From an uncultured Burkholderiales bacterium (GTDB lineage: Bacteria; Pseudomonadota; Gammaproteobacteria; Burkholderiales; Burkholderiaceae_C): a stretch of DNA of 43,002 bases. The stretch lies in contig CAIVLE010000085.1 in assembly GCA_903906635.1 (NCBI GenBank), positions 1 through 43,002 of the forward strand, written 5' to 3'. Position 1 is the stretch's first letter. The number at the start of each line of letters is the position of its first letter. The translations under genes and the position numbers were made by a program. The notes beneath the pieces are model-generated. The model saw only the letters and a program-made list of their open reading frames with translations, was not told where the DNA came from and did no database searches. Shown piece by piece: positions 2,855 to 36,715 of the stretch.

Positions 2855-2868
2855 GGGGAGCTTCCTGT

Positions 2869-3537
2869 TCAGGCCAAGGCCATGGCAATGTCGTTGCTGG
2901 GCACTTTGCGGTCAAGGGTGAGGTTTTCTTCCACGTGGCGCAGGTGCTCGTCCATCAAACGCACGGCCAACTTTTCGTCTTTGGCGGCAATGGCCTTGAT
3001 GATCTCGGCGTGCTCTTCGGCCGAGTGTTCCGCGGCATGGGTGCTTTGGTACATGAGCGTGATCAGCGCGCAGCGCGAAATCAACTCGCCTAGCATTTGG
3101 GCCAGCACTTGGTTGTTCATCAACTCAGCCATGCGCACATGAAAGTCACCCAACAAGTCGGTGCGACCCGGCACATCGCCGCTGCTAACGGCCGCTTTTT
3201 CTTGCGCCACGTGTTCTTTGAGGGCTTTGATCTGGGACGGGGTGACGTGACGCACAAAGTTGCGGGTCATCTCGGCTTCGAGCATGCGACGCACTGCAAA
3301 CACTTGGCGCGCTTCGTCAGAGGAGGGGGTGGCCACAAAGGCCCCGCGTGCGGGCTCCATGCGGATGAGGCGTTTTTGTGCCAACTGAAACAAGGCTTGG
3401 CGTACGAGCGTGCGTGACACGCCAAAGTGATCGGCCAGCTTTTGTTCGGCCAGTTTGGTGCCTGGGTGCAGGCGGTGCTCCACGATGGCTTTGGTCATCG
3501 CATCCACAATGCTTCGGGTGGCGGTTGAGCTGTCCAT
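2869..3537 (-). CDS. GntR-family (FCD) transcriptional regulator of the urate branch
   Basis: A 222-residue regulator. Residues about 5-70 form the winged helix (GTKLAEQKLADHFGVSRTLV, then the RGAFVA wing), followed by an all-helical FCD ligand domain with the metal-binding style motif LLGDFHVRMAEL and further His residues (EEHAEI, DEHLRHVEE). The ATG at 3537 was preferred over an upstream TTG because GGAG lies 7-10 nt before it. It is first in the operon with puuE and uraD-allC, and divergent from uraH. A TGTATACA palindrome in the shared upstream region, repeated before puuD and nearly before xdhA1, is a plausible operator; autoregulation would follow. The ligand is unknown, and a pathway intermediate such as urate or allantoin is an inference. 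Confidence 0.88.
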   Translation of the reverse strand: MDSSTATRSIVDAMTKAIVEHRLHPGTKLAEQKLADHFGVSRTLVRQALFQLAQKRLIRMEPARGAFVATPSSDEARQVFAVRRMLEAEMTRNFVRHVTPSQIKALKEHVAQEKAAVSSGDVPGRTDLLGDFHVRMAELMNNQVLAQMLGELISRCALITLMYQSTHAAEHSAEEHAEIIKAIAAKDEKLAVRLMDEHLRHVEENLTLDRKVPSNDIAMALA

Positions 3538-3585
3538 GGGTGTCTCCGGCAAGGTCGTTGTCGCTTGATGATAGCCTCAAACACT

Positions 3586-3602
3586 AAAACTGTATACACT
3601 TT
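3586..3602. promoter_or_regulatory. Putative GntR operator, gntR/uraH divergent region
   Basis: The palindrome TGTATACA (3591-3598) sits in the stretch aaaactgtatacactt. The same 16 bases recur upstream of puuD at 15206-15221, and TGTATACC occurs upstream of xdhA1. FCD-type GntR proteins commonly bind short TNGTNNNACNA-like palindromes, and this fits that pattern. The site lies 49 nt from the gntR start and 47 nt from the uraH start, so it could control both directions. Binding itself is inferred. Confidence 0.6.
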
Positions 3603-3606
3603 CAGT

Positions 3607-3621
3607 CAACCGTTTCGGTTG
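3607..3621. repeat. Inverted repeat in uraH leader
   Basis: CAACCG and CGGTTG form a perfect 6-bp inverted repeat with a TTT centre, between the putative GntR operator and the uraH ribosome site. It could be a small RNA hairpin in the uraH leader or a second protein-binding site. A related-looking repeat lies upstream of the FMN dehydrogenase gene at 29885-29899. Its role is unknown. Confidence 0.4.
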
Positions 3622-3644
3622 CCATCTCTTTTTTGGAGCGACAC

Positions 3645-3998
3645 ATGGGATTGAGCACACACGTTTTAGACACCATGCACGGTTGCCCCGCCGCAGGCAT
3701 GCAGGTGTCAATGTTTACCACTGCCAGTGGCCAAGCCAGCTTGGTGAAATCGTTCACCTTGAACCACGATGGCCGCAACCCCGATGGCTTGTTGTATGAC
3801 AACGACAGCCTGAAGAAGGGTACCTACAGACTGGTGTTTGACGTGAAGGGGTACTTCGCGGCCAAGGGCGTAGCCTTGCCAGAACCTAACTTCCTAGACC
3901 AGGTGATCCTGGACTTTGGTGTGGCCCACACTGATCAGCATTACCACGTGCCCTTGTTGGTCAGTCCCTGGAGTTATTCGACCTATCGGGGCTCGTGA
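3645..3998 (+). CDS. uraH: 5-hydroxyisourate hydrolase (transthyretin-like)
   Basis: A 117-residue protein of the transthyretin-related HIU hydrolase family. It hydrolyses 5-hydroxyisourate, the product of urate oxidation, to OHCU. Diagnostic features are the N-terminal LSTHVLDTMHGCPAAGM with its catalytic-type His, the DHGRNPDG-like turn (NHDGRNPDGLL) and the C-terminal YSTYRGS tetrapeptide signature. The ATG at 3645 is used because GGAG lies 7-10 nt upstream; an upstream TTG in frame has no such site. No signal peptide is seen, so a cytosolic enzyme is expected. It is transcribed divergently from gntR-puuE-uraD/allC, which carry the following steps. Confidence 0.95.
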   Translation: MGLSTHVLDTMHGCPAAGMQVSMFTTASGQASLVKSFTLNHDGRNPDGLLYDNDSLKKGTYRLVFDVKGYFAAKGVALPEPNFLDQVILDFGVAHTDQHYHVPLLVSPWSYSTYRGS

Positions 3999-4122
3999 CT
4001 TATTCTTAAATCACACCCAGCACCCACAGCCTGGCAATGACGCCTGATGTGATTGTGTCGACTTCAAGCTGGCCAAAGGGGCGTGTGTTGCGGGCGGGTT
4101 GGCGTGGTCGCCAATCATTTCA

Positions 4123-4139
4123 GTTCATTGAAAATGAAC
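4123..4139. promoter_or_regulatory. Perfect palindrome upstream of flavoprotein gene
   Basis: GTTCATT and AATGAAC form a perfect 7-bp inverted repeat with a GAA centre. It lies about 150 nt before the flavoprotein gene at 4288, in a 289-nt stretch (3999-4287) where no convincing gene was found. Size and symmetry fit a dimeric repressor site. No regulator can be assigned. Confidence 0.45.
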
Positions 4140-4287
4140 GCTTGCAAATCGGGGGGATTGGAGGGCAAGACAGTCTTGTGTGAGCGACCTCGCCTTGCTG
4201 CTACGGGTAATACCCATGTGAACTGGCACTTCGCCGACCTAGCATCGCTGACGATTTAATTGAATTTATCGTTTTTGGAGCTTAGGG

Positions 4288-5763
4288 ATGGAGCAATTTG
4301 ACGTGTGCGTGATCGGCGCTGGGCCCTCTGGTTTTGCGGCTGCCATGCGCGCCATAGACTATGGCAAGCGCGTGGCCTTGGTGGAGCGGGGCAAGGTGGG
4401 CGGCGCAGGTATTTTTGACGGGGCTTTGTCGTCCAAAACCATGTGGGAGCTGTCTGAGTGCTACAAGCTCACCCGCAACACCCAACTGGGCTACACGGTG
4501 TATGACTCGGAGCTGAGCTTCACGAGTGTGATGAACCAAACCCACCGTGCGGTGGTGGAAAAACACAGCCAAATCAAACAGCAGATTGCCTATTTTCAAA
4601 AGTCGGGGCAGTTGCAGTTCTTCAAGGGGCAAGCCAAGTTTGCGTCACCCCATGAGGTGGATATCACCAACGCACAGGGCCAAGTACAGACCATACGGGC
4701 CGACAACATCGTGATGGCGGTGGGCAGTCGACCCCGTTATTTGCCCCATATTCCGATTGACGAAAAAATCATCCTCACCAGTGATGGTGTGTCGGGTTTG
4801 TCTGAGTTTCCCAAAAGCATTGTGATTTTGGGAGCGGGTGTGATCGGCTGCGAATTTGCCACCATCTTCTCGAACTTCGGTCAGACCAAGGTCTTTTTGA
4901 TCGACAAAGAAGAACGCATCTTGCCGTTTGAAGACGAGGACATTTCACACACGGTGGCTGCCAATTTGGAGCGCAATGGAGTGGTGATACACCACGGTGC
5001 ATCCCTTGAGCACATGGACGTGGTCAATGGCCAAGTGGAATATGTCTTGTCTTTCAAAGACGGTCGCCGCGAAACGCACACGGTTGAAAAAGCCTTGATT
5101 TCCGTGGGCCGCGTCTCTAACAGCGAAAACCTGGGACTGCAGGCTGCAGGGGTACAGCTCAACGACAGGGGCAATATCGATGACGAGCACACCCGCTCCA
5201 ATGTGCCGCACATTTATGCTGTGGGCGACTTCACGGCTGACATTGCCTTGGTCAACGTCGGGGAATTGGAAGGCCGTCACGCGGTCGAACGCATGTTTGG
5301 CACGCCTCAGCGACAGTTGGTTTACGAGAATATTTCCACCATCATGTTCTTAAATCCCGAAGTGGCCTCGGTGGGATTGAACGAGACGCAAGCGCGCAAG
5401 AAGAAAATTGCGCACCGCGTTGCTGTCATGAACTACCGCTACGTCAACCGCGCCATTGCCATGAGCAAAGTGGATGGGTTCTTCAAGTTGCTCGTGACTG
5501 ATGACGATGAGATGAAAATATTAGGCATGCGCGTGATGGGCAACCACGCCTCCAGCACCATCATGGCGGTGGCGTTGATGATTTCCATGGACATCGGCAT
5601 TTCGCACTTGGCCGAGCTGATTTTTCCGCACCCCTCCATACCAGAGGGCATCCAAGAGTGCGCCCGCATGCTGATGGGCACCTCCATCGTCAAGCCCGAA
5701 GTGTTCAACTTAGACGTGCGCTGCTACCGAGTCGATGTGCAGGGGCGGGTCATCCATCTTTGA
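4288..5763 (+). CDS. Dihydrolipoamide dehydrogenase-like flavoprotein lacking the redox cysteines
   Basis: A 491-residue class-I pyridine-nucleotide-disulfide-oxidoreductase fold. The FAD dinucleotide-binding site is VIGAGPSGFAAA (8-19), the NAD(P) site is VILGAGVIGCEFATIF, the second FAD contact is IYAVGDFT, and the dimerisation domain ends with HPSIPE (equivalent of the His-Glu dyad). At the active site, where relatives read GGTCxxxGCIPSK, this protein reads GGAGIFDGALSSK (38-50): Gly41 and Ala46 replace both cysteines. It therefore cannot run disulfide chemistry. It is closer in that respect to SthA-type transhydrogenases, but also lacks the remaining SthA cysteine. A GGAG site precedes the ATG. 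It is convergent with ppk2. Substrate unknown; a transhydrogenase or quinone/NADH oxidoreductase role is possible. Confidence 0.82.
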   Translation: MEQFDVCVIGAGPSGFAAAMRAIDYGKRVALVERGKVGGAGIFDGALSSKTMWELSECYKLTRNTQLGYTVYDSELSFTSVMNQTHRAVVEKHSQIKQQIAYFQKSGQLQFFKGQAKFASPHEVDITNAQGQVQTIRADNIVMAVGSRPRYLPHIPIDEKIILTSDGVSGLSEFPKSIVILGAGVIGCEFATIFSNFGQTKVFLIDKEERILPFEDEDISHTVAANLERNGVVIHHGASLEHMDVVNGQVEYVLSFKDGRRETHTVEKALISVGRVSNSENLGLQAAGVQLNDRGNIDDEHTRSNVPHIYAVGDFTADIALVNVGELEGRHAVERMFGTPQRQLVYENISTIMFLNPEVASVGLNETQARKKKIAHRVAVMNYRYVNRAIAMSKVDGFFKLLVTDDDEMKILGMRVMGNHASSTIMAVALMISMDIGISHLAELIFPHPSIPEGIQECARMLMGTSIVKPEVFNLDVRCYRVDVQGRVIHL

Positions 5764-6676: not shown

Positions 6677-6748
6677 GCGGCATACCCGAGCTCAATTCGG
6701 GGTGCAGGTCACTAAAATCAGTTGATATTTTTTAGCATTCCCTTCACC

Positions 6749-8224
6749 ATGACCCAAGTCACCAATACCGTGCGATTTGTGCTCGACGGCCAAATCGTCG
6801 AAGCCCAAGGTGTGCGCCGCACCACCACCGTTCTGGATTACCTGCGTGAGCAACTGCACCGCAAAGGCACCAAAGAGGGCTGCGCCGAAGGCGACTGTGG
6901 GGCCTGTGTGGTGATGGTGGGCGAGCTTAACGCTGCGGGCACCGGTGTGAGCTACGTCCCTGTCAACAGCTGCATTCAGTTGTTGCCTGCTTTGGACGGC
7001 AAATCGGTCAAGACGGTGGAGAGTCTCAAAAAAGCCGATGGCTCTTTGCACCCTGTGCAAGAAGCCATGGTGAGCTGTCACGGTTCGCAGTGCGGGTTTT
7101 GTACCCCTGGCATCGTGATGAGCTTGGTCAACTTGGTGCAAACCAACACCAACCCCAAACGCCAAGAAATCACCGATGCGCTGAGCGGCAACCTGTGCCG
7201 TTGCACGGGCTACACGCCAATCATCGACGCCACGGTCAAAGCCTGCGAAAAGAAAACCGCCTTGAAAGTCGACGACAGCGCCGATGTGCCGCTGCTGCAG
7301 CAGATCAAGCGCGCGGCCACCCCCACTTTGAGCCTGGATGGTGAGATCATCGTGCAGCCGGTGGTGCGTACCAAAAAAGGCAACGAGTTCGTCTCTCCCG
7401 CGACCCTGGCCGAGGTGGCCGACTACTTGGTCAAGCACCCCACCACCACGCTTCTGGCGGGCAGCACCGAGGTGGGGTTGCAGGTCAATAAACAGTTCAG
7501 CCGGCCAGACCACATCATGTATTTGGGTAACGTGCAAGAGCTGCGCCGTGTGGCCGAGACCGCCAAGGCCTGGCGCATCGGCGCTGCGGTGTCGCTGGCA
7601 CAGGTTGAAACTCTGCTAGCCCAGGCTTACCCTGACTTTGCCGAGGTACTGCGTCGCTTTGGCTCGCCCCCCATTCGCTCCACCGCCACCTTGGCGGGCA
7701 ACATCGCCAACGGCTCTCCCATTGGAGACACCATGCCGTGTTTGATGGCCTTGGGGGCCAGCTTGGTGTTGCGCCGTGGCGACAAAACCCGCACCGTGGC
7801 GCTGGACCAGTTCTACACCGGTCAAAAGCAAAACGTGTTGCAAGCGGGCGAGTTCATCGAGGCCGTTGAGTTGCCCAAGCCTGTCGCAGGCCAAGTGTTT
7901 CGCGCCCACAAGGTGAGCAAGCGGTTTGAGCAAGACATTTCAGCCACCTGCGCCGCCATCAGCTTCAGCCTCAAAGACGGCAAGCTCCACGCGGTCAAAC
8001 TGGCCTACAACGGTTTGGCGCCATCGCCTTGCCGAGCGCCCAAGCTCGAAGCGGTGTTGGAAGGCAAAACACCCGCCAGCGTGAGCGCTGCTGAACTCGA
8101 CGCGGCCATTTCAGCGAGCTTTGTGGCGCGTGATGGTTTGCGGGCCACTTGGGCGTACCGCTCGCTGGTGGCGCGCAACTTGGTGCTAGATTTCATCGAA
8201 GAACAAACCTCGGAGGTGGCGTAA
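6749..8224 (+). CDS. xdhA: Xanthine dehydrogenase, FeS/FAD subunit (first copy)
   Basis: A 491-residue small subunit that passes electrons from the molybdenum centre to NAD. Residues 1-160 hold the two [2Fe-2S] domains, with cysteines in GCAEGDCGACVV (about 46-58), CHGSQCGFCTPG (about 110-121) and NLCRCTGY. The FAD domain follows (LLAGSTEVGLQVNK around 235; ATLAGNIANGSPIGDTMP), then the CO-dehydrogenase flavoprotein C-terminal domain (HKVSKRFEQDISA). The start at 6749 gives the usual N-terminus (TVRFVLDG); an upstream in-frame ATG at 6722 would add nine untypical residues. The ribosome site is weak. xdhB follows directly with no gap. It is the first gene of an operon running to about 15149. 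Confidence 0.95.
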   Translation: MTQVTNTVRFVLDGQIVEAQGVRRTTTVLDYLREQLHRKGTKEGCAEGDCGACVVMVGELNAAGTGVSYVPVNSCIQLLPALDGKSVKTVESLKKADGSLHPVQEAMVSCHGSQCGFCTPGIVMSLVNLVQTNTNPKRQEITDALSGNLCRCTGYTPIIDATVKACEKKTALKVDDSADVPLLQQIKRAATPTLSLDGEIIVQPVVRTKKGNEFVSPATLAEVADYLVKHPTTTLLAGSTEVGLQVNKQFSRPDHIMYLGNVQELRRVAETAKAWRIGAAVSLAQVETLLAQAYPDFAEVLRRFGSPPIRSTATLAGNIANGSPIGDTMPCLMALGASLVLRRGDKTRTVALDQFYTGQKQNVLQAGEFIEAVELPKPVAGQVFRAHKVSKRFEQDISATCAAISFSLKDGKLHAVKLAYNGLAPSPCRAPKLEAVLEGKTPASVSAAELDAAISASFVARDGLRATWAYRSLVARNLVLDFIEEQTSEVA

Positions 8225-10582
8225 ATGAATGCTCCCATCAACCTCAAAAATTTGTTGCCCGCCTCAGGCGTGCAACAAGGCAGCGACGTGATCCACGAGT
8301 CGGCACACTTGCACGTCACGGGCTCGGCCGCCTACACCGACGACATCCCAGAGTTGGCTGGCACTTTGTTTGCCGCCCTCATCTTGTCACCCGTGGCGCA
8401 TGGCGAGTTGATCGGCGAGGGCATTGACCGCGCCGCGATTTTGAAAGAGCACGGTGTGGTGGCGGTGTACACCTCCAAAGACATTCCGGGCGAAAACAAC
8501 TGCGGACCCATCAACCACGACGATCCGTTCTTGGCCGTGGGCAAGGTCGAGTTCATCGGACAAGCCGTGGCGGTGGTGGTGGCGCGTGACATGTTGTACG
8601 CCCGCGAAGCCGCTAAAAAAGCGAAGGTGCTGGTGAAAGAGCTCACCCCGATCTTGACCATTGACGAGGCCATGGCCGCGCAAGCGTTTGTCATGCCCCC
8701 CAAAGGCATCACCCGTGGCAACGCTGCCGAGGCGATTGCCAAAGCACCGCATCACCTCAAAGGCAGCACGGAGACAGGCCAGCAAGAGCAGTTCTACCTG
8801 GAGGGCCACATCACGTACGCGGTGCCCCGTGAGGACGGTCAACTCACGCTGTATTCCTCCACCCAACACCCTGATGGCAACCAGCGCGAAGCTGCTGCGG
8901 CCTTGAACCTCACCACCAACGATGTCGAAGTGATTTGCCGACGCATGGGTGGCGCCTTTGGTGGCAAGGAGGGCAATGCCAGCATCTTCAGCCAAAGCGC
9001 TGCGCTGGCCGCCCATTTGCTGCAAAAGCCCGTGAAGTTGCGCGTCAACCGCGACGACGACATGACCATCACTGGCAAGCGCCACGATTTTCGGATTGAC
9101 TACGAGGTGGGCTTTGACAACGACGGGCGCATCTTGGGCGCGGACATTGCCTTGCTGTCGCGCTGCGGCTACAGCACCGATTACTCAGGCCCGGTGAATG
9201 ACCGTGCGTGCTTGCACATCGACAACTGTTACTACATTCCGAACTTACAACTCATCAGCCACCGCTGCAAAACCAACACCCAAAGCGCCACCGCATTCCG
9301 TGGCTTTGGTGGCCCACAGGGCATGTTTGGCATTGAGACCGTGATTGAGCAAATAGCCAACACCTTGGGCAAAGACCCCTTGGATGTGCGCAAGCTCAAT
9401 ATGTACCAAGACCCGGCCATCTCGGGCAACCCGGCCACCATGACCACGCAGTACAACCAGTTGATCGAAGACTGGGTGGGTGACCAAGTGGTCAACCAAG
9501 TCGAAGCCCAGTCGCAGTACCGCGAGCGTCGCGCCAGCGTGAATGCCTTCAACCAGGCCCACACCAAACGCAAGCGCGGCTTGGCCTTGGTGCCCTTGAA
9601 GTTTGGCATCAGCTTCACGGCCACCATGCTCAACCAAGGCGGCGCCTTGCTCAACATCTACATGGACGGCTCCATCAGCGTCAACCACGGTGGCACCGAA
9701 ATGGGCCAAGGCCTCAACACCAAGATGGCCCAAGTCTGTGCCGATGGTTTGGGCGTTTCTTTGAAGTATGTGCGCGTGACTGGCACCGACACCCAGAAGG
9801 TGCCCAATGCATCGGCAACTTCGGCCTCAAGCGGCGCTGACATCAACGGAGCTGCCATCATGAATGCCACCGCACAAATGCGTGAGCGTTTGAAACCGGT
9901 GGCCGCCCGCATGTTGGGCTGTGACGCCTCTGGGGTGACTTTTGCCGACAGTCAGGCGCATGGCGGGGGCAAGTCGGTGGCTTGGGCCGCATTGGCCAAG
10001 CAAGCTTGGCTCGACCGTGTGGGCTTGTCGGTGACCGGTTTTTACATGACCCCCGAAATTGCCTACGACTTCACCACCTTGAATGGCCGTGCGTTTTATT
10101 ACTACTGCTATGGCGCTGCCGTGAGCGAGGTGGAGATCGACACCCGCACGGGCGAGTGGTGGCTCAAGGCCGTGGACATCGTGCACGACGCGGGCAAGAG
10201 CATCAAACCGGCCATCGACAATGGCCAAATCGAAGGCGGCTACGTGCAAGGCATGGGCTGGCTCACGATGGAAGAGTGCATTTGGGACAAAAAAGGCAAA
10301 CTGCTCACCCATGGCCCCAGCACCTACAAAATCCCCGTTGCCGGAGACATTCCCGAGCACCTGCGCATCACCTTGTTTGACGGCAGCAACGTCAAGCCCA
10401 CGCCATTCAACAGCAAAGCGGTGGGTGAGCCCCCGCTGATGTTGGCTTTGTCGACGTACTTTGCCTTGCGTGATGCGGTGAGTGCCAGTGCCGACCACAA
10501 GACGGTGGTTCACATGAATGCCCCGGCCACGCCAGAGCGCATCTTGATGGCTTGCGAACGCGCCAAAGCCGCCGCACACTGA
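8225..10582 (+). CDS. xdhB: Xanthine dehydrogenase, molybdopterin subunit (first copy)
   Basis: A 785-residue large subunit that hydroxylates hypoxanthine and xanthine. Visible landmarks are SAAYTDDIPE near the N-terminus, RRMGGAFGGKEG (about 240-251), AFRGFGGPQGMFGIE with the conserved Arg, the NHGGTEMGQGLNTKM pterin contact and KAVGEPPLML (about 731-740) with the catalytic Glu. Length fits bacterial XdhB (about 770-790). The ATG follows the xdhA stop without a spacer, so translation is probably coupled. The large subunit binds molybdopterin with a sulfurated Mo, loaded with help from the XdhC encoded next. A second, clearly diverged copy is at 34415-36715. Confidence 0.95.
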   Translation: MNAPINLKNLLPASGVQQGSDVIHESAHLHVTGSAAYTDDIPELAGTLFAALILSPVAHGELIGEGIDRAAILKEHGVVAVYTSKDIPGENNCGPINHDDPFLAVGKVEFIGQAVAVVVARDMLYAREAAKKAKVLVKELTPILTIDEAMAAQAFVMPPKGITRGNAAEAIAKAPHHLKGSTETGQQEQFYLEGHITYAVPREDGQLTLYSSTQHPDGNQREAAAALNLTTNDVEVICRRMGGAFGGKEGNASIFSQSAALAAHLLQKPVKLRVNRDDDMTITGKRHDFRIDYEVGFDNDGRILGADIALLSRCGYSTDYSGPVNDRACLHIDNCYYIPNLQLISHRCKTNTQSATAFRGFGGPQGMFGIETVIEQIANTLGKDPLDVRKLNMYQDPAISGNPATMTTQYNQLIEDWVGDQVVNQVEAQSQYRERRASVNAFNQAHTKRKRGLALVPLKFGISFTATMLNQGGALLNIYMDGSISVNHGGTEMGQGLNTKMAQVCADGLGVSLKYVRVTGTDTQKVPNASATSASSGADINGAAIMNATAQMRERLKPVAARMLGCDASGVTFADSQAHGGGKSVAWAALAKQAWLDRVGLSVTGFYMTPEIAYDFTTLNGRAFYYYCYGAAVSEVEIDTRTGEWWLKAVDIVHDAGKSIKPAIDNGQIEGGYVQGMGWLTMEECIWDKKGKLLTHGPSTYKIPVAGDIPEHLRITLFDGSNVKPTPFNSKAVGEPPLMLALSTYFALRDAVSASADHKTVVHMNAPATPERILMACERAKAAAH

Positions 10583-10586
10583 CTCT

Positions 10587-11459
10587 GTGCCGCGACACAC
10601 CGCCGAACTCTTGAATCAACTCCAGCACGCCGACGGCGTGCTGGTGAGCGTACACAGCGTCGAGGGCTCAGGCCCGCGTGATGTGGGCGCTTGGATGGCG
10701 GTTTTTGAGAACACCTTGGTCAACACCATTGGCGGAGGCCATCTGGAGTTTCAGGCCATCGACCAAGCGCGTGCTTTGCTCAAGCGACGCACAGACGCTG
10801 TGGGTTCTTTGTCTTTAAGCGCGGCATCTGCCAATTCAGCCCCAGCAGCTGCCACCCACCAAGACCACACCCTCACCCAGCGCTACGCCCTGGGGCCGGC
10901 ACTGGGGCAGTGCTGCGGCGGCGTGGTGCATCTGCGTTTTGAGCCTATGTCTGCTGCCGATGCACCCGCGCTGCAGCAGCGCTTGCTCGCCAACGGTCAG
11001 CCGCTGGCCTTGTTTGGTGGCGGTCACGTGGGGCGTGCCTTGATTCATGTGTTGGGCAATTTGCCGTTTTCGGTGCGCTGGATCGACAGCCGAGACGAAA
11101 TTTTTCCAGCCCAATTGCCTCTCAATGTCGTGGGCGAACACAGCGACCCGGTGCATGCTGCGGTGGCCGATTTGGTCCCTCACTCGGCGGTGCTCATCAT
11201 GAGTTTCAGCCACGCCGAAGACCTGGATGTGGTGGCTGCTTGCCTCAAGCGCCAACGCGCTTTGGGTGACGTGGGGTTCATTGGCTTGATTGGCAGCAAA
11301 ACCAAGTGGGCTACCTTTCGCCACCGCTTGCAAGAGCGCGGTTTCAGCGCCGATGAACTGGCGCGGGTCACCTGTCCTATCGGCATCCAGGGGATCACCG
11401 GCAAAGAGCCTGAGGTGATTGCCGTGGCTGTGGTGGCGCAGTTGTTACAGCAAAGCTGA
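10587..11459 (+). CDS. xdhC: Xanthine dehydrogenase maturation factor XdhC
   Basis: A 290-residue XdhC/CoxI family chaperone, which binds molybdenum cofactor and helps its sulfuration and insertion into xanthine dehydrogenase. The N-terminal XdhC domain has SVHSVEGSGPRDVGAWMAVF and TIGGGHLEFQAI. The C-terminal Rossmann domain has LALFGGGHVGRALIHVLG and GLIGSKTKWATF. A GTG start lies 4 nt after the xdhB stop. Only this copy of xdhC is in the window, so it may serve both xanthine dehydrogenases. A run of Ser/Ala-rich residues (about 72-95) is a less conserved insertion between the conserved blocks. Confidence 0.93.
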   Translation: MPRHTAELLNQLQHADGVLVSVHSVEGSGPRDVGAWMAVFENTLVNTIGGGHLEFQAIDQARALLKRRTDAVGSLSLSAASANSAPAAATHQDHTLTQRYALGPALGQCCGGVVHLRFEPMSAADAPALQQRLLANGQPLALFGGGHVGRALIHVLGNLPFSVRWIDSRDEIFPAQLPLNVVGEHSDPVHAAVADLVPHSAVLIMSFSHAEDLDVVAACLKRQRALGDVGFIGLIGSKTKWATFRHRLQERGFSADELARVTCPIGIQGITGKEPEVIAVAVVAQLLQQS

Positions 11460-15221: not shown

Positions 15222-15351
15222 CGTGTGACCTGTCGCAGCGGAGCAGGGCACAGCATGTGGCGCACATGCGGCTCCCTTGTTCGCGACCCTTGCGTCATTC
15301 ACAGTGCCCGCGGTGGTGAATGATCTCTTCTAGCCAATGGACTGGTGTGAC

Positions 15352-16566
15352 ATGGACGCGTATTTACTCGATTGGGCCAACCTGCTGCTGCGCTGGGTGC
15401 ATGTGATCACTGCCATCGCATGGATTGGCTCATCGTTTTACTTTGTTTTTCTAGACAACAACCTGATCAAGCCCAACTCACCTGATTTGTTGGAAAAAGG
15501 CGTCGACGGTGCCATGTGGGCGGTGCACGGGGGTGGTTTTTACAACCCCCAAAAGTACATGGTGGCGCCTAAAAAAATCCACACCAAGCTGCATTGGTTT
15601 TACTGGGAGGCCTACACCACGTGGTTGACGGGCTTTTCGTTGTTTACGGTCTTGTACCTGTGGAATGCGGGCACTTTTTTGATCGACAAGTCCTTGATGG
15701 ATTGGTCTCCCGCACAGGCCATCGCCGCCGCTTTGAGCTTCTTGGTGGTGTTTTGGCTGATCTATGACGCGGTCAGCCGTGTGTTTGGTTTTCGTGAAAA
15801 CGGCGAGCGCGTTGTGGGCGCGATCATGATGGCTGTGGTGGCGTTTGCCGCTTGGGCCGCTTGTCACTTGTTTGCAGGCCGAGCGGCCTTCTTGTTGGTG
15901 GGCGCCATGATTGCGACGGCCATGAGCGCCAACGTGTTCTTTTGGATCATCCCGGGTCAACGCAAGGTGGTGGCCGCCATGACCTCGGGCGTGGCCATGG
16001 ACCCCAAAGAGTTGGCCATGCACGGCAAGCGCGGCAAGCAACGCAGCGTGCACAACACCTATTTCACGCTGCCAGTGATTTTTGCGATGCTCAGCAACCA
16101 CTACAGCTTCTTGTACACCCACGAGTACCACTGGGTGGTGTTGGTGTTGATGATGTTGGCCGGTGCCCTGATTCGTCAGTTCTTTGTGCAGCGTCATGGC
16201 TATCACTTGGGTCGCGCCAGCAACCCCTTGCCCTTTGCCCTCGCCGGTGTGGGGGTGCTGTTGGGCGTGATCGTGTGGCTGCGCCCAGCACCCACGGTCA
16301 ACGCCAGCGCCGCGTCTGCAACCCCTGTGACCTTTGCCCAAGTCAGCCAGGTGTTTGAGCAGCGTTGCTACATGTGCCACGGTGCCCAGGTCCAAATGAA
16401 AAACGTGCGCTTTGACAGCGCCGAGGGTGTCAAGCAGCACGCCCTCAATATTTACCAACAAGCCGTGGTCTTGCGTGTCATGCCCATGAACAACGCCACC
16501 GGCATCACCGAAGAAGAGCGCGGCTTGATCAAGCGTTGGTACGAGGCAGGTGCCAAGACGCAGTGA
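15352..16566 (+). CDS. puuD: Membrane urate hydroxylase PuuD with C-terminal cytochrome c domain
   Basis: A 404-residue inner-membrane protein of the PuuD family, which oxidises urate to 5-hydroxyisourate and passes electrons to the respiratory chain instead of making peroxide. It begins MDAYLLDWANLLLRWVHVIT, followed by AWIGSSFYFVFLDN, and has about eight hydrophobic segments up to residue 320. A periplasmic-type mono-haem domain follows, with CYMCH at 339-343 and Met residues near the C-terminus (VLRVMPMNN) for axial ligation. The start at 15352 matches the family N-terminus; an in-frame ATG at 15337 adds five residues and cannot be excluded. UraH (3645-3998) takes the product onward. A putative GntR operator lies about 135 nt upstream. 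Confidence 0.93.
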   Translation: MDAYLLDWANLLLRWVHVITAIAWIGSSFYFVFLDNNLIKPNSPDLLEKGVDGAMWAVHGGGFYNPQKYMVAPKKIHTKLHWFYWEAYTTWLTGFSLFTVLYLWNAGTFLIDKSLMDWSPAQAIAAALSFLVVFWLIYDAVSRVFGFRENGERVVGAIMMAVVAFAAWAACHLFAGRAAFLLVGAMIATAMSANVFFWIIPGQRKVVAAMTSGVAMDPKELAMHGKRGKQRSVHNTYFTLPVIFAMLSNHYSFLYTHEYHWVVLVLMMLAGALIRQFFVQRHGYHLGRASNPLPFALAGVGVLLGVIVWLRPAPTVNASAASATPVTFAQVSQVFEQRCYMCHGAQVQMKNVRFDSAEGVKQHALNIYQQAVVLRVMPMNNATGITEEERGLIKRWYEAGAKTQ

Positions 16567-29935: not shown

Positions 29936-31207
29936 ATGAGTCATCAAAAGGTTCAAGACCTACAACGTCGTCAGCTCTTGGCATGGCTGGGCGCAAGCCC
30001 CTTGCTGTCCATGGGCAAAGATGTTTACGCCCAAGATCCTGCCAATGAGCTTGTGCGCAACGTGGCCAAGCGGCCCGATCCGATGATCTGGACGCCGACC
30101 ACCCCATTGGATTTGATCGCAGATCCGAGTCAGGCGATCAATGTGTTCGATTTTGAGCCGGTGGCATTTGCCAAAGTGCCCCCCGCGCATTTCGCCTACA
30201 TGGCTTCTGGCATCGATGACGAAGTGACCTTGCGCGCCAACAGAACGTCTTTTTTGAAATACTCCTTACGCCCACGCCGTTTGCGGGATGTGAGCGAGAT
30301 TGACACGTCGGTGTCCATGTTTGGTACGCGGTGGAAATCCCCCATCATCTTGGCGCCCACTGGGGGAAATAAAGCGTACGACCCAGAGGGTGAGGTGGCC
30401 GTTGCCAAGGCCGCACGAAAAGGCGGATTTTTGAACATTCTCTCCAGCGCAGCAGCTTCCAGCATTGAAGATGTGGTGGCCGCTCGGCAAGGACAGGTGT
30501 GGTTTCAGCTCTACGCGACTTCAAGTTTTGAGGTCTCCAAACAAATAGCCAAACGCCTTGATCGCGCAGGGGTTCCTGTCATGGAGATCACGGTCGATCG
30601 CAATGGGGGGCGTAACCAAGAAACGTTTGCCAGGTTAAGGCGCTTAGACAACCGCAATTGCGCAGCTTGCCACACCCATGGCGCGCCAGGAAGTCGGTTT
30701 GAACGACCCATTTACGACGGCATTGACTTCACGAATGTGAAAAGCATGTCCTCCTCCAACATGACCTGGGACTTCATTCGCAAGATGCGTGATGTCACCC
30801 AGATGAAGTTGATCATCAAAGGTATTCAGACCGAGGAGGACGCCGAGCTGTGCCTCAAATACGGAGTCGATGGCATTCATGTCTCCAACCATGGCGGAAG
30901 AAGTGAAGACGGAGGGCGAGGTGCAATCGAGTGCTTGCCAGAGATTGCCAAAGTAGCCAAGGGCAAAGTGCCCATCCTCTTTGACAGTGGCATTCGCAGA
31001 GGCAGCGACATCTTCAAGGCTCTGGCGCTGGGTGCGAGCGCTGTGTGCGTGGGGCGTCCTTATCTGTGGGGTCTAGGTGCGTTTGGTCAGCCTGGCGTTG
31101 AGCGTGTGATGGACATCTTACAAACAGAATTGGTGGCGTCGATGCAGCAAATGGGCACTCCTGACATCGCTTCGATCGTTCCAGGGATGGTCATCAAGAC
31201 ATCCTAA
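29936..31207 (+). CDS. Exported FMN-dependent 2-hydroxyacid dehydrogenase with a CxxCH haem-c motif
   Basis: A 423-residue protein of the glycolate oxidase / lactate dehydrogenase FMN barrel family. It starts with a twin-arginine-like leader (QRRQLLAWLGASPLL, 10-24). The barrel keeps the catalytic and FMN residues: FAYMASGIDDEVTLR (Tyr88), WFQLY (Tyr193), TVDRNGGRNQ (Asp221, Arg226), IIKGIQTEEDA (Lys295) and VSNHGGR (His319, Arg322). In the loop that in relatives covers the active site stands NCAACHTHG, with Cys242-Ala-Ala-Cys245-His246, a c-type haem attachment motif. Export by Tat would put it where cytochrome c is assembled. A strong AGGAGG site precedes the ATG. The substrate is unknown; glycolate, lactate or glycerate are candidates, and a glycerate kinase gene follows. 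Confidence 0.88.
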   Translation: MSHQKVQDLQRRQLLAWLGASPLLSMGKDVYAQDPANELVRNVAKRPDPMIWTPTTPLDLIADPSQAINVFDFEPVAFAKVPPAHFAYMASGIDDEVTLRANRTSFLKYSLRPRRLRDVSEIDTSVSMFGTRWKSPIILAPTGGNKAYDPEGEVAVAKAARKGGFLNILSSAAASSIEDVVAARQGQVWFQLYATSSFEVSKQIAKRLDRAGVPVMEITVDRNGGRNQETFARLRRLDNRNCAACHTHGAPGSRFERPIYDGIDFTNVKSMSSSNMTWDFIRKMRDVTQMKLIIKGIQTEEDAELCLKYGVDGIHVSNHGGRSEDGGRGAIECLPEIAKVAKGKVPILFDSGIRRGSDIFKALALGASAVCVGRPYLWGLGAFGQPGVERVMDILQTELVASMQQMGTPDIASIVPGMVIKTS

Positions 31208-31327: not shown

Positions 31328-32635
31328 ATGAATAACTTGAGCTTCTCCCCCCAAGCCTTACTTGGCGAACTCTTTAACGCCGCTGTGCAGCGCGCCTTGC
31401 CACTGCACAACACCGCCGCGTGCTTACCCACACCGCCCAAGGGCCGCACCCTGGTGCTGGGCGCAGGCAAGGCTGGTGGGGCCATGGCGCAGGCGGTCGA
31501 AGCTTTGTGGCCGCTTGACCAGCCGTTGTCGGGCCTGGTCATCACGCGCTACCACCACACACCGCCACGACCTGCGGGATTGCCCGCACGCATTGAGGTG
31601 GTGGAGGCTGCGCACCCGGTGCCAGACGCCGCCGGCTTGGCCGCCTCTGAGCGCATGTTGGCCTTGACCCAAGGTTTGACAAAAGACGACCTGGTGCTGT
31701 GCCTGATCTCTGGCGGGGGCTCGTCTTTGCTGACCCTGCCGGCTCAGGGCTTGAGCTTGCAAGACAAGCAGCGCATCAACCGCGACTTGCTGCACAGTGG
31801 CGCCAACATCACCGAGATGAACTGTGTGCGTAAACACCTCTCGCGCATCAAGGGCGGGCGCTTGGCCCAAGCGTGTGCGCCAGCCCAAGTGGTGACGCTC
31901 ACCATCAGCGATGTGCCGGGCGACGACCCCTCGGTCATTGCCAGTGGCCCCACGGTGTGCGACCACACCACGTGTGCCGATGCACTGGCTATATTGCAGC
32001 GCTACCGCATTGAGGTCTCGCCTGAGGTGCAGGCGGCCTTGTTGTCTGGCGCGCTAGAAACGCCCAAGCTCGGCATGAACTGGCATGAACAACCGGTGCA
32101 CCTGATTGCCACGCCCCAACAGTCGCTGCAAGCCGCAGCGCAGGTGGCGCGTGCAGCGGGCTTGAATGCCTATGTGCTGAGTGACGAAATTGAGGGCGAG
32201 TCGCGCGAAGTGGGCAAGGTGCACGCGGCGCTGGCCCGTGCCTCAGCGCGTGGTCTGGGGCCATTTCAAAAGCCGTGTGTGATTTTGAGTGGCGGCGAGA
32301 CCACGGTGACGGTGCGTGCGTCAGCTTCGAGCGCCAGTCCTGGGCGGGGCGGGCGGGCTGGTGAGTTTTGTTTGGGTCTGGCCCAAGCCCTGCAAGGGCA
32401 GCCCGGCGTGTGGGCCTTGGCTGCCGATACCGATGGCATTGACGGCAGCGAAGACAACGCGGGTGCCCGCGTGGCACCTGACACCTTGGCCCGAGCGCAG
32501 GCTTTGGGCATGAAGCCCTCGGCGTATCTGGACCGCAACGACGCCTATGGATTCTTTGAGCCCCTGGGTGACTTGGTGATCACCGGCCCCACCTTTACCA
32601 ACGTCAACGATTTTCGCGCTTTGTTGGTGCTGTGA
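31328..32635 (+). CDS. Glycerate 2-kinase (GckA/TtuD, MOFRL family)
   Basis: A 435-residue glycerate kinase of the GckA/MOFRL type, which phosphorylates glycerate to 2-phosphoglycerate. Blocks are TLVLGAGKAGGAMAQAVE, VEAAHPVPDAAG, LVLCLISGGGSSLLTLPA, NCVRKHLSRIKGGRLAQA, SDVPGDDPSVIASGPT, and in the MOFRL domain VILSGGETTVTV, RGGRAGEFCLGLAQAL and AADTDGIDGSEDNAGA. AGGA lies 7 nt before the ATG at 31328. Glyoxylate from ureidoglycolate breakdown can reach glycerate via tartronate semialdehyde, so the enzyme closes the route to central metabolism; the intermediate enzymes are not in the window. Older annotations call this family hydroxypyruvate reductase TtuD. Confidence 0.92.
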   Translation: MNNLSFSPQALLGELFNAAVQRALPLHNTAACLPTPPKGRTLVLGAGKAGGAMAQAVEALWPLDQPLSGLVITRYHHTPPRPAGLPARIEVVEAAHPVPDAAGLAASERMLALTQGLTKDDLVLCLISGGGSSLLTLPAQGLSLQDKQRINRDLLHSGANITEMNCVRKHLSRIKGGRLAQACAPAQVVTLTISDVPGDDPSVIASGPTVCDHTTCADALAILQRYRIEVSPEVQAALLSGALETPKLGMNWHEQPVHLIATPQQSLQAAAQVARAAGLNAYVLSDEIEGESREVGKVHAALARASARGLGPFQKPCVILSGGETTVTVRASASSASPGRGGRAGEFCLGLAQALQGQPGVWALAADTDGIDGSEDNAGARVAPDTLARAQALGMKPSAYLDRNDAYGFFEPLGDLVITGPTFTNVNDFRALLVL

Positions 32636-33066: not shown

Positions 33067-34418
33067 GCGCCTATTGTGGCGGCTGTGTGAACCATTTCTC
33101 CTTGCACCACTGTGTGTGCCACCAGCCGATCGTCACCCAGCACCACCAAGGCAAACAGCCACTCGGCCAGGGAGTCGGCTTGCGCGGTGCGGCGTGCCAG
33201 CAGCGGCGTGGCGCTTGGGTGGAGCACCACAAAATCGGCCTCGCAGCCCACTTGCAAATTCCCCACCACGCCGTCTAGCCCCAAAGCCCGCGCTGCGCCT
33301 GCGGTGTGTTGCCACCACAGGTGTGAGGGGCTCAGGCTCAAGCCCGCGCGCCCCACCGCCTGGCGCGCCACGGTGTAGGCAGCGTGCATGGTGTGAAACG
33401 GGCTAAAGCTGGTGCCTCCGCCCACGTCGCTGGCCAGACCGTAGCGCAAGCCACAACGGTCGGCGCTGGCGTAGTCAAAAAAGCCACTGCCTAAAAACAA
33501 ATTGCTGGTCGGGCTGATGGCCGCCACCGCACCGTGCTCGGCCATGCAGGCGCGGTCGGTGTCATCCAAGTGGATGCAGTGCGCATACACCGCACGCTCG
33601 CGAAGCAAACCCGCTTGGGTGTAGACATCCAGATAGCTTCGTGCGTGGGGGAAGAGTTCATGCGTCCAGCGCACTTCGTCCAGGTTTTCGGCCACGTGCG
33701 ACTGAATCCACACCGTGGGGTGTTGCTGTGCCAACTCTCCCGCGCCGTGCAGTTGCGCCTGCGTGCTGGTGGGGGCAAAGCGCGGTGTGATGACGTAGCC
33801 CAAGCGGGCCACACCGTGCCAGCGTTCAATCAAACGCTCGGTCTCTTGTAGGCTTTTTGGGGTGTCGTGGTCGCGCAAGCCCTCGGGGCTGTGGCGGTCT
33901 TGCAGCACCTTGCCGGTGATCATACGCAAGTCACGGGCTTGTGCTTCCATCATGAAGGCGTCCACAGACGCCGAGTGTGCGGTGGCAAATGTCAGCGCGG
34001 TGGTGACGCCGTGACGCATCAACTCATCCAAAAAAAAGCGGGCTACGCCGCGCGCGTGCGCGGGGTCGGCAAACTTCTGTTCGTGCGGGAATGTGTAGTG
34101 CTCCAACCAGGGCAACAAGCCCTCGGCGGGTGATGCTATGACATCGGTTTGCGGGTAGTGGATGTGCAGGTCCACAAAGCCCGGCGCAATCAGGTGGCCT
34201 GCAAAGTGCGTCACTGCCAAATCGGGGTAGTGGCCAATCAAGCTGGCGTAGTGGCCCACCGCTTGCACACGCACCGTGCCGTCGGCCTCGCGCGCGGTGA
34301 CCAGCAGGCCATCGGTCTCGTGCGAGGGCGTGGCGTGTTGGCTGTCGGCAAACCACAGCAGGGCGGCGCGCCATCCGCGCCAATCGGTGCGCTGGGCACT
34401 GGGAGGATTGGGGGTCAT
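33063..34418 (-). CDS. guaD: Guanine deaminase
   Basis: A 451-residue amidohydrolase that converts guanine to xanthine. Diagnostic parts are LIAPGFVDLHIHYPQTDVIA with the HxH metal pair, LLPWLEHYTFPHEQKF, GKVLQDRHSPEGLRD, GYVITPRFAPTSTQAQL, IQSHVAENLDEVRW, ERAVYAHCIHLDDTD and GLASDVGGGTSFSPFHTM with the final Asp. These are specific to guanine deaminase. Both ends overlap neighbours by four bases (xdhB2 stop, thioesterase start), a fully coupled operon. Its product xanthine is the substrate of the xanthine dehydrogenase encoded just upstream. Confidence 0.94.
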   Translation of the reverse strand: MTPNPPSAQRTDWRGWRAALLWFADSQHATPSHETDGLLVTAREADGTVRVQAVGHYASLIGHYPDLAVTHFAGHLIAPGFVDLHIHYPQTDVIASPAEGLLPWLEHYTFPHEQKFADPAHARGVARFFLDELMRHGVTTALTFATAHSASVDAFMMEAQARDLRMITGKVLQDRHSPEGLRDHDTPKSLQETERLIERWHGVARLGYVITPRFAPTSTQAQLHGAGELAQQHPTVWIQSHVAENLDEVRWTHELFPHARSYLDVYTQAGLLRERAVYAHCIHLDDTDRACMAEHGAVAAISPTSNLFLGSGFFDYASADRCGLRYGLASDVGGGTSFSPFHTMHAAYTVARQAVGRAGLSLSPSHLWWQHTAGAARALGLDGVVGNLQVGCEADFVVLHPSATPLLARRTAQADSLAEWLFALVVLGDDRLVAHTVVQGEMVHTAATIGA

Positions 34419-36715
34419 GGGTGCTTCAAGGCGTGCAGCACGCGTTCGGGGGTGGCGGGTGTGTCAAGTTGCACGGCTGAATTGTCGCCGCGTGCGGCCG
34501 AGATGGCTTCACGCAACGCTTCGTACACGCTGATGGCCAGCATGAAGGGCGGCTCGCCCACGGCCTTGCTAGCGCCCACAGTGTCTTCGCGGTTGGCCTC
34601 GGGCCACAGCGACACTGCAAAGTGTTCTGGCACATCGGCGGCGGTGGGGATTTTGTAGGTGCTGGCGCCTTTGGTTTGCAGCACACCGGCGCTGTTGTAC
34701 ACCAACTCTTCGCTGGTGAGCCAGCCCAGGCCTTGCACAAAGCCGCCTTCGATTTGGCCCACGTCAATGGCCGGGTTCAGCGACTGCCCCACGTCGTGCA
34801 AGATGTCCACGCGCAGCAACCGGTACTCCCCCGTCAAGGTGTCAATGGCCACCTCGCTGCACGCCGCGCCATACGCAAAGTAATAAAAAGGACGGCCCGT
34901 GAGGGTGTGGCGGTCGTAATGGATTTTGGGCGTGGCATAAAAGCCATCGCTCCAAAGCTGCACGCGCTGCTGGTAAGCCAGCTGCACCGCTTGCACAAAG
35001 CTGCGCATGGTGTGGGGCGTGCTGACTTGGGAGTTGGCAAACACCACTTCTTGTGGCGTACAGCCATCGAGTTGTGCCAAGCACTGGGCGATGTTGCTGC
35101 GCACCGTCAGAGCGGCGGTTTGTGCGGCACGGCCGTTCAAGTCGGTGCCACTCGATGCGGCGGTGGCGCTGGCATTGGCCACTTTGTCGGTGTCGCTCGC
35201 GCTGATGCGCACTTGCGCCAGGGGCAAGCCAAACACCTGCGCCACCACTGCACAGACCTTGGTATGCAGGCCCTGGCCCATTTCGGTGCCGCCGTGGTTG
35301 ACCAGTACGCTGCCATCTGTGAACACCGACACCAAAGCGCCCGCTTGGTTGAAGTGTGTGGCCGTGAAGCTGATGCCAAATTTGACGGGCGTGAGCGCCA
35401 TACCGCGCTGAATCACGTGGTGCTGCGCATTCCACAGGGCCAGCGCGGCTCTTCGGGCGTGGTACTGGCAGTCCTCAGCCAGGCGGGTCATCAGGGGCTG
35501 CAAGATGTTGTCTTCGATCTGCATGCCGTAGGGCGTGGTATGCCGATCTTGCACGCCATACAGGTTGCGCAGGCGCACATCGAGTGGGTCCAGCTGCAAC
35601 GCACGGGCGATGTCGCCCATCACGGTTTCGATCAGCAACACCCCTTGCGGGCCGCCAAAGCCACGGTAAGCGGTGTGACTTTGGGTGTTGGTTTTGCAGC
35701 GATAAGAGGCGATATCCACGGCTGGCAAAAAGTAAGCGTTGTCTGTGTGAAAAATCGCCCGGTCTGCCACCGGACCGCTCAGGTCGGCGCTGTGGCCACA
35801 GTGCACCATTTGCACCGAATGCAGAGCCAGCAATTGGCCTTGCTCGTCATATGCAGCTTGGTAGTCGTGGCTGAACGGGTGACGCTTGCCGGTGACTAAC
35901 ATGTCGTCCCCCCGGTCCAACCGCATCTTGACCGGGCAGTTCATGGTGTGGGCTGCCACGGCGGCCCACACGGCCAGGTGGCCGCCTTGTGTTTCCTTGC
36001 CACCAAAGCCCCCGCCCATGCGACGGCACACCACCCGCACCGCATGCAGGGGCAGCCCCAAGGCGTGGGCCACCCAGTGCTGTACCTCGCCGGGGTGTTG
36101 GGTGCTCGAATGCACCAGCCATTGCCGCGGGCCTTGCGGCACAGCGTAGGCAATTTGGGTTTCCAAGTAAAAGTGTTCCTGGCCGCCAATCTCCAACTGG
36201 CCCGAGAGCTGGTGTGGCGCCTTTGCCCAGGCCTGCTGGGTGTTGCCGCTGTGCACGTGCACGGGGGGCAACACAAACGACTGCTGCTGCAAGGCGGAGC
36301 GCGCATCCAGTACCGGGGGCTCGGGGGCCACGTCCATGCGTGCCAAGCGTGCCGCATGCAAAGCTTGCTGGTGGGTCTGGGCCAACACCAAAGCCATGAC
36401 CTGGCCCACGTAGGACACGTACGTGCTGGCAAAGATCGGTTCGTCGTGGGTGTAAGCCGCCAGCACCGGGTCACCCACGATATCGGCGGCCGTCACCACG
36501 CCACACACGCCCGGTGCTTTCAGGCAAGCGCTCAGGTCAAGTGCGCGCACCTGACCGCGCGCCACCGTGCTCAGCACAGGGGCTGCGTGCAGCGTGCCTT
36601 CAGTGAGCGGTATGTCGTCGATGTAGGCGGCGCTGCCTTGCACATGGTGCACGGCGCTTTCGTGCAATGCGTGTCTCTCCTCAACGCTTTTGGGGGTGGT
36701 GTGGGGCGTTTTCAT
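34415..36715 (-). CDS. xdhB: Xanthine dehydrogenase, molybdopterin subunit (second copy)
   Basis: A 766-residue molybdenum subunit. It has SAAYIDDIPLTEGTLHAAPV, VRVVCRRMGGGFGGKETQGG, AYRGFGGPQGVLLIETVMGD, NHGGTEMGQGLHTKVCAVVA and ASKAVGEPPFMLAISVYEAL with the catalytic Glu. It clearly differs from the first copy at 8225-10582 throughout, so the two are old paralogues or separate acquisitions and not a recent duplication. It overlaps xdhA2 upstream and guaD downstream by four bases each. Function: oxidation of hypoxanthine and xanthine to urate, using xanthine made by the adjacent guanine deaminase. Confidence 0.93.
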   Translation of the reverse strand: MKTPHTTPKSVEERHALHESAVHHVQGSAAYIDDIPLTEGTLHAAPVLSTVARGQVRALDLSACLKAPGVCGVVTAADIVGDPVLAAYTHDEPIFASTYVSYVGQVMALVLAQTHQQALHAARLARMDVAPEPPVLDARSALQQQSFVLPPVHVHSGNTQQAWAKAPHQLSGQLEIGGQEHFYLETQIAYAVPQGPRQWLVHSSTQHPGEVQHWVAHALGLPLHAVRVVCRRMGGGFGGKETQGGHLAVWAAVAAHTMNCPVKMRLDRGDDMLVTGKRHPFSHDYQAAYDEQGQLLALHSVQMVHCGHSADLSGPVADRAIFHTDNAYFLPAVDIASYRCKTNTQSHTAYRGFGGPQGVLLIETVMGDIARALQLDPLDVRLRNLYGVQDRHTTPYGMQIEDNILQPLMTRLAEDCQYHARRAALALWNAQHHVIQRGMALTPVKFGISFTATHFNQAGALVSVFTDGSVLVNHGGTEMGQGLHTKVCAVVAQVFGLPLAQVRISASDTDKVANASATAASSGTDLNGRAAQTAALTVRSNIAQCLAQLDGCTPQEVVFANSQVSTPHTMRSFVQAVQLAYQQRVQLWSDGFYATPKIHYDRHTLTGRPFYYFAYGAACSEVAIDTLTGEYRLLRVDILHDVGQSLNPAIDVGQIEGGFVQGLGWLTSEELVYNSAGVLQTKGASTYKIPTAADVPEHFAVSLWPEANREDTVGASKAVGEPPFMLAISVYEALREAISAARGDNSAVQLDTPATPERVLHALKHP

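Follow-up and report, generated by a model that had tools for sequence, protein, structure and literature searches.

Probably exported FMN-dependent hydroxyacid dehydrogenases with a predicted haem c on the active-site lid

We have identified a subfamily of FMN-dependent alpha-hydroxy-acid dehydrogenases that carry a twin-arginine leader and an invariant CxxCH motif in the loop that closes over the active site. The member studied here is encoded by an uncultured Burkholderiales bacterium on a stretch of 43,002 nucleotides (contig CAIVLE010000085.1), the whole of which is referred to as the window. Judged from sequence, this protein is probably an FMN-dependent L-2-hydroxyacid dehydrogenase of the periplasm that carries a haem c of its own on the lid and has a cytochrome c as acceptor. 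A first-pass annotation had read the protein as an exported FMN enzyme with a haem-c motif in its active-site loop, and the alignment of relatives speaks for that reading: each of the 86 rows of the subfamily has CxxCH, and 85 of them have the RR pair. On the best reading, the subfamily belongs to the FMN_dh family, differs from flavocytochrome b2 and would add a new flavocytochrome c architecture to that known family.

The gene for the FMN-dependent alpha-hydroxy-acid dehydrogenase with a predicted haem c is an intact open reading frame of 423 codons (423 aa) at 29936..31207 on the forward strand, and its start ATG lies shortly 3' of AGGAGGAG. A Pfam search of the window protein matched PF01070 (FMN_dh) over residues 79-419 with an E-value of 5.5e-110, covering the whole barrel. 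The same domain was matched by 76 of 76 proteins in a comparison set, termed A2, of 73 subfamily members and 3 others. The curated NCBIfam cut-offs for LldD (190.2 of 550 bits) and lactate oxidase (222 of 645.5 bits) were not reached by the window protein, and the nearest solved structures by sequence are lactate oxidases and glycolate oxidases. An AlphaFold2 model generated from a 76-row alignment had a mean pLDDT of 86.6 and a pTM of 0.83, and its best fold match was glycolate oxidase 5zbm (E 7.5e-36). In the lid region, the mean pLDDT of ten-residue blocks between 221 and 260 was 59-78.

Relatives were collected by scanning genome contigs with a six-row alignment, from which the best 80 of 299 confirmed loci were retained (47-87% identity to the window protein). 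Two scan patterns retrieved most of the rows; one of them contained His85 and neither contained CxxCH. The 84 subfamily rows used for most counts fall into 37 groups at 80% identity, and a later alignment of 90 rows consists of these 84 plus 6 later ones (three rows dropped, six added). Left out were L008 (identical to L007 as a protein), L077 (N-terminus lacking), L079 (a sequence containing X) and L157 (core identical to that of L040). The subfamily was compared with 57 other FMN_dh proteins, a partial sample of the family made up of the genome's own paralogues, best matches fetched as loci, L006 and 8 plasmid matches; L106, for which the open reading frame was wrongly caught, and two duplicates were omitted.

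The twin-arginine leader (29936..30031, forward strand) contains the motif RRQLLAWLG, as the first-pass annotation had it, at residues 11-19, with the arginine pair at residues 11-12 (29966-29971). By eye, a possible cleavage site lies near VYA/QD, at about residue 32. An alignment of homologues had been proposed as a check on whether leader and CxxCH occur together, and they do so in the proportions given above; the open frame of the single row without RR, L077, lacks the N-terminal part. The Pfam model TAT_signal was matched in just 2 of the 76 A2 proteins. Two of the 57 other FMN_dh proteins, L123 and L127, match the leader pattern, with no hydrophobic stretch afterwards by eye. A Klebsiella pneumoniae plasmid encodes an FMN_dh protein (L149, 1417-2604; 37.7% identical) that has a twin-arginine leader and lacks both CxxCH and His85; thus, export alone does not bring CxxCH. 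This protein looks like a second exported FMN_dh lineage without the haem motif. Klebsiella accounts for 107 of the 399 plasmid records that matched the query, through L149-type or other FMN_dh genes.

The CAACH motif, likewise confirmed in the translation, occupies residues 242-246 (30659..30673, forward strand) and is the predicted site of haem c attachment, with His246 as the proposed proximal ligand. All 90 aligned subfamily rows, which are 43-87% identical to the window protein, retain Cys242, Cys245 and His246. The two intervening positions vary, with no residue above 31% at 243 or 244, and the remainder of loop 236-262 has a mean top-residue share of 0.49. Because both cysteines and the histidine are held while the x positions vary, the motif is beyond chance, and its conservation is not a selection effect, since the scan patterns contained no CxxCH. 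The motif stands at the same place in all 86 subfamily rows, recurs in 7 of 7 later matches (L098 and L156-L161), and is missing from all 57 FMN_dh proteins outside the subfamily. A cytochrome c domain was recognized by Pfam in none of the 76 proteins of A2, so the protein is better described as one that would work like a flavocytochrome c than as a member of a known cytochrome c family.

A second histidine accompanies the motif. His85 (30188..30190, forward strand), three residues before Tyr88, is the proposed distal haem ligand; all 90 CxxCH proteins share it, and it is absent from the 57 others, where Phe, Ile, Val, Ala, Leu and further residues are found. CxxCH and His85 go together. His85 is also present in all 23 rows whose retrieval needed no His85 (11 found by the other pattern only, 5 from a protein search, 6 added rows and the window protein itself). 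Across 86 subfamily rows only three histidine columns are invariant, namely 85, 246 and the catalytic 319, and His246 and His85 are accordingly named here as candidate axial ligands of a lid haem c. Met276 was ruled out as the sixth ligand, with Met in just 57 of 86 rows. A methionine at position 403 is shared by 81 of 86 subfamily rows, yet 2 of the 3 FMN_dh proteins from outside the subfamily in that comparison have it as well. A gap-free stretch of the alignment with glycolate oxidase 1gox pairs His85 with a Val that precedes the active-site Tyr by three residues, and among the chains aligned its place is taken by Val in glycolate oxidase and Gly in lactate oxidase. Tyr143 of flavocytochrome b2, which we take to be the same tyrosine as Tyr88, touches the haem propionate. 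In lactate oxidase the equivalent Tyr40 helps to bind the pyruvate carboxylate, according to the available text of PMC4908395. Arg115 and Asp238 are additional subfamily markers (84 of 84 each, vs 1 of 57 and 0 of 57 in the other FMN_dh proteins), and might line a haem site.

The first-pass annotation had listed Tyr88, Tyr193, Asp221, Arg226, Lys295, His319 and Arg322 as an intact catalytic set. Each of these residues is found at its position in the translation, and the assignment stands for all except Arg226: Tyr193, Asp221, Lys295, His319 and Arg322 are kept in 84 of 84 subfamily rows and Tyr88 in 83 of 84. The conserved loop-4 arginine of the family (Arg181 of lactate oxidase), present in 56 of the 57 other FMN_dh proteins, aligns with Gln228 (30617..30619, forward strand), and Arg226, two residues earlier, is therefore not its equivalent. 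The glycolate oxidase alignment agrees in pairing the family arginine with Gln228. At this site the 84 subfamily rows have Gln in 65, Trp in 10, Thr in 8 and Arg in 1. As we take the loop-4 arginine to be a residue of the lid and not a defining one, the window protein is regarded as a divergent branch of the PF01070 family.

Loop 4 of the window protein comprises residues 222-277 (30599..30766, forward strand) and carries CAACH. In lactate oxidase, loop 4 (residues 173-222) is flexible and closes over the active site, and Arg181 bonds Tyr215 of this lid, as given in the available part of PMC4908395; the motif had thus rightly been placed in the active-site lid. The notion that it is an insert in the barrel does not hold. 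From Asp221 to Trp278, the subfamily (84 rows) covers 54-63 residues; among the 57 other FMN_dh proteins this span is exactly 78 in 34 and 46-63 in 7. Loop 4 has therefore been replaced and not enlarged, with a length that also occurs elsewhere in the family. With Gln, Trp or Thr at the Arg181 site in 83 of 84 rows, a lid contact of the Arg181-Tyr215 type is gone where CxxCH and His85 appear. A lid of 54-63 residues provides little protein to wrap a haem, which is a counter-point to the haem reading.

A quick, unrooted maximum-likelihood tree was constructed from 141 rows (84 subfamily and 57 other) using columns 66-221 and 278-415, so that leader and loop were excluded. One branch parts the 84 subfamily rows from the 57 others with an SH-aLRT support of 99, with some long branches among the others. 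Labels among the best 80 of 299 loci include Burkholderiales (with Polynucleobacter), Hyphomicrobiales, Reyranella, Acidobacteria, Rokubacteria and one Opitutaceae. Members of the subfamily include those of Polynucleobacter nymphae (L025) and Methylobacterium bullatum (L007). Some labels of contigs from metagenome-assembled genomes (MAGs) look doubtful (Thermoflexus, Bordetella parapertussis and Chitinophaga; L032, L038-L040, L043, L057, L076 and L091), and the proteins of these contigs are placed among other proteobacterial ones in the tree. The gene is sparse and patchy in distribution, as few matches were obtained in the genome samples: a close copy (E up to 1e-60) occurred in the own genome only among 200 genomes of its family, where the second match was 34% identical and without the motif, and 7 of 399 genomes of the order (E up to 1e-75) and 6 of 398 of the phylum matched, the own genome being counted in both. 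The own genome encodes two further FMN_dh genes, both without leader and CxxCH. A Hyphomicrobiales MAG (L052) has tandem copies of the CxxCH enzyme at 2854-4188 and 4211-5488, with the motifs CGDCH and CTACH. At two other loci, the gene for the CxxCH enzyme has as its neighbour, on the opposite strand, an FMN_dh gene without CxxCH that is LldD-like though below the cut-off (L013, 9495-10679; L028, 6505-7743).

Maturation genes were surveyed in the host genomes. The own genome contains CcmF twice as well as TatC. Among 48 host genomes, hand-picked from 86 subfamily loci, CcmF was found in 44, ResB in 6, and one or the other in 47. The ResB matches of two genomes (G708 and G709) are weak and lie inside the CcmF gene, and those of a third (G734) are partial. 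Neither CcmF nor ResB was found in 1 of the 48, G722, an assembly of 3.3 Mb for which completeness is not given. The background of CcmF in a phylum sample was 103 of 150 (Fisher p 0.001 against 44 of 48, uncorrected for relatedness). Co-occurrence with Ccm is weakened as strong evidence, because CcmF is common anyway.

The gene neighbourhood was scanned for a redox partner and for indications of the substrate. Of 84 loci, the automatic choice of open reading frames kept the target in 59 and lost it in 25, and no consistent partner cytochrome gene was found: five of the 59 encode CxxCH proteins no more than 2.5 kb away, and one of these five (L052) is a second copy of the same enzyme family. 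At L082, a plain cytochrome c gene (2144-2608) lies 37 bases upstream on the same strand and encodes a possible electron acceptor, and at L053 the gene directly downstream (9266-10918) encodes a Vgb_lyase-like protein with one CxxCH. In the window, the next gene downstream on the same strand (31328..32635, forward) is a glycerate 2-kinase-like gene of the MOFRL type (PF13660 and PF05161), and its functional link to the FMN_dh gene is uncertain. A glycerate kinase relative adjoins the FMN_dh gene in 1 of 83 loci (L027), and the Ldh_2 and metallo-beta-lactamase genes of the window recur in 3 of 83; these counts are too few to derive a substrate from the neighbours. Genes for TctC receptors are present at 32 of 83 loci. 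Matches to TctC, fragments included, number 126 in the 3.04 Mb of the own genome, or about one per 24 kb, and the frequency at the loci is thus near background, as estimated from the own genome alone; a substrate from the TctC neighbours was therefore rejected. In itself, a set of 126 TctC matches is large for 3.04 Mb. Genes of purine catabolism are also clustered in the window: deaminases for guanine and 8-oxoguanine and a subunit of xanthine dehydrogenase are encoded at 34415-36715, and a urate oxidase with CxxCH near its C-terminus at 15337-16566. Judged by eye, an allantoinase-like gene (1880-2854) and a second set of xanthine dehydrogenase genes (6722-11459) belong here as well.

Flavocytochrome b2 (L-lactate:cytochrome c oxidoreductase, EC 1.1.2.3) is a textbook case of flavin-haem interdomain electron transfer. 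The window protein resembles it in joining an FMN_dh barrel and a haem, predicted here, within one chain, and in its presumed acceptor, cytochrome c; the AlphaFold2 model matches the flavocytochrome b2 structure 1szf (E 3.6e-33). In flavocytochrome b2, however, the haem b occupies a separate, hinge-joined domain (PMC6472588, available text), whereas a c haem on the lid is predicted for the window protein. Pfam found no Cyt-b5 domain, the kind of haem domain at the N-terminus of flavocytochrome b2, in the window protein or among the 76 A2 proteins. Glycolate oxidase and L-lactate oxidase have the same active-site set except for the loop arginine, but they show no CxxCH in the aligned chains and their acceptor is oxygen. 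Transfer from a flavin to a c haem also links the window protein, as predicted, to p-cresol methylhydroxylase, flavocytochrome c sulfide dehydrogenase and gluconate 2-dehydrogenase, in which the cytochrome is a separate subunit or domain and the flavoprotein is of another family. (S)-Mandelate dehydrogenase and LldD share the barrel, and members differ in loop 4, which serves membrane attachment in mandelate dehydrogenase. The available text of PMC8491902 gives oxygen, cytochrome c (for flavocytochrome b2) and quinone as acceptors in the FMN_dh family, with S-mandelate dehydrogenase passing its electrons to quinone. Flavoenzymes with cytochromes are listed in PMC6472588 as flavocytochrome b2, with its haem b domain, and c-type enzymes such as gluconate 2-dehydrogenase and p-cresol methylhydroxylase; in the available portion of that list, flavocytochrome b2 is the FMN lactate enzyme and no FMN_dh barrel with a c haem is named. 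PMC11238220 covers lactate oxidases of the FMN_dh family, and the words heme and cytochrome are absent from its available text. Among the matches listed in a search of titles and abstract openings of the open-licence PMC literature, none dealt with an FMN_dh enzyme with haem c or with an experiment on such a protein.

We hypothesize that the folded, FMN-loaded barrel is exported via the Tat pathway, as the leader suggests, and that the cytochrome c maturation system would attach haem to Cys242 and Cys245 of the lid, in keeping with the motif and its conservation. His246 would be the proximal iron ligand, and His85, on the helix leading to Tyr88, the likely distal one, which is the weakest step of the scheme. 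The substrate would be oxidized on FMN by the Tyr/Tyr/Lys/His/Arg set of the family, and electrons would then pass one by one from FMN to the lid haem, a soluble periplasmic cytochrome c and a terminal oxidase. The mode of action would be that of flavocytochrome b2, except that the mobile b haem domain is replaced by a lid-borne c haem. More tentatively, the haem may double as a latch: iron held by His246 of the lid and by His85 could keep the active site shut in place of the arginine-based contact, the haem would take electrons from FMN, and ligand exchange at His85 could couple lid opening to redox state.

Other roles for the conserved residues have to be weighed against a lid haem. The two cysteines could instead form a structural or redox-active disulfide in an exported lid, with His246 serving another purpose and no haem bound. 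Such a bond would be favoured by export, and both the shortness of the lid and the lack of a recognized cytochrome c domain are in its favour; yet a CxxC disulfide needs no invariant histidine next to it, whereas His246 is kept in 90 of 90 rows, and His85 is invariant in the same proteins and found in 0 of the 57 others. We consider this arrangement unlikely. It is quite improbable that the lid is stiffened by an iron-sulphur centre or by a metal ion, for example zinc, bound to CxxCH and His85. Two cysteines and two histidines, all four invariant, do make a possible metal site, but the exact C-x-x-C-H spacing with free x positions is the signature of haem c, and zinc or iron-sulphur sites do not need that spacing with a histidine directly after the cysteine.

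Replacement of the loop arginine in 83 of 84 rows raises the further question of whether haem c is bound by a protein that has lost its dehydrogenase activity, the haem serving in sensing or in another reaction. Against this stand Tyr193, Asp221, Lys295, His319 and Arg322 in every one of 84 rows and Tyr88 in 83. In lactate oxidase, moreover, Arg181 contacts Tyr215 of the lid, and it is Tyr40, Tyr146 and Arg268 that position the substrate (PMC4908395, available text). A loss of activity is accordingly hardly to be expected, and an active dehydrogenase with a haem c on its lid is the reading we prefer.

If this reading is correct, it suggests that evolution reached the end served by flavocytochrome b2 a second time, not by adding a domain but by placing a haem on the lid of the enzyme itself, and the known ways of building flavocytochromes would be widened. 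Genes of the subfamily would pass in annotation as ordinary FMN_dh enzymes. A compact single-chain enzyme of this kind would be of interest for direct electron transfer electrodes, and its occurrence would point to periplasmic hydroxyacid oxidation in freshwater and soil bacteria.
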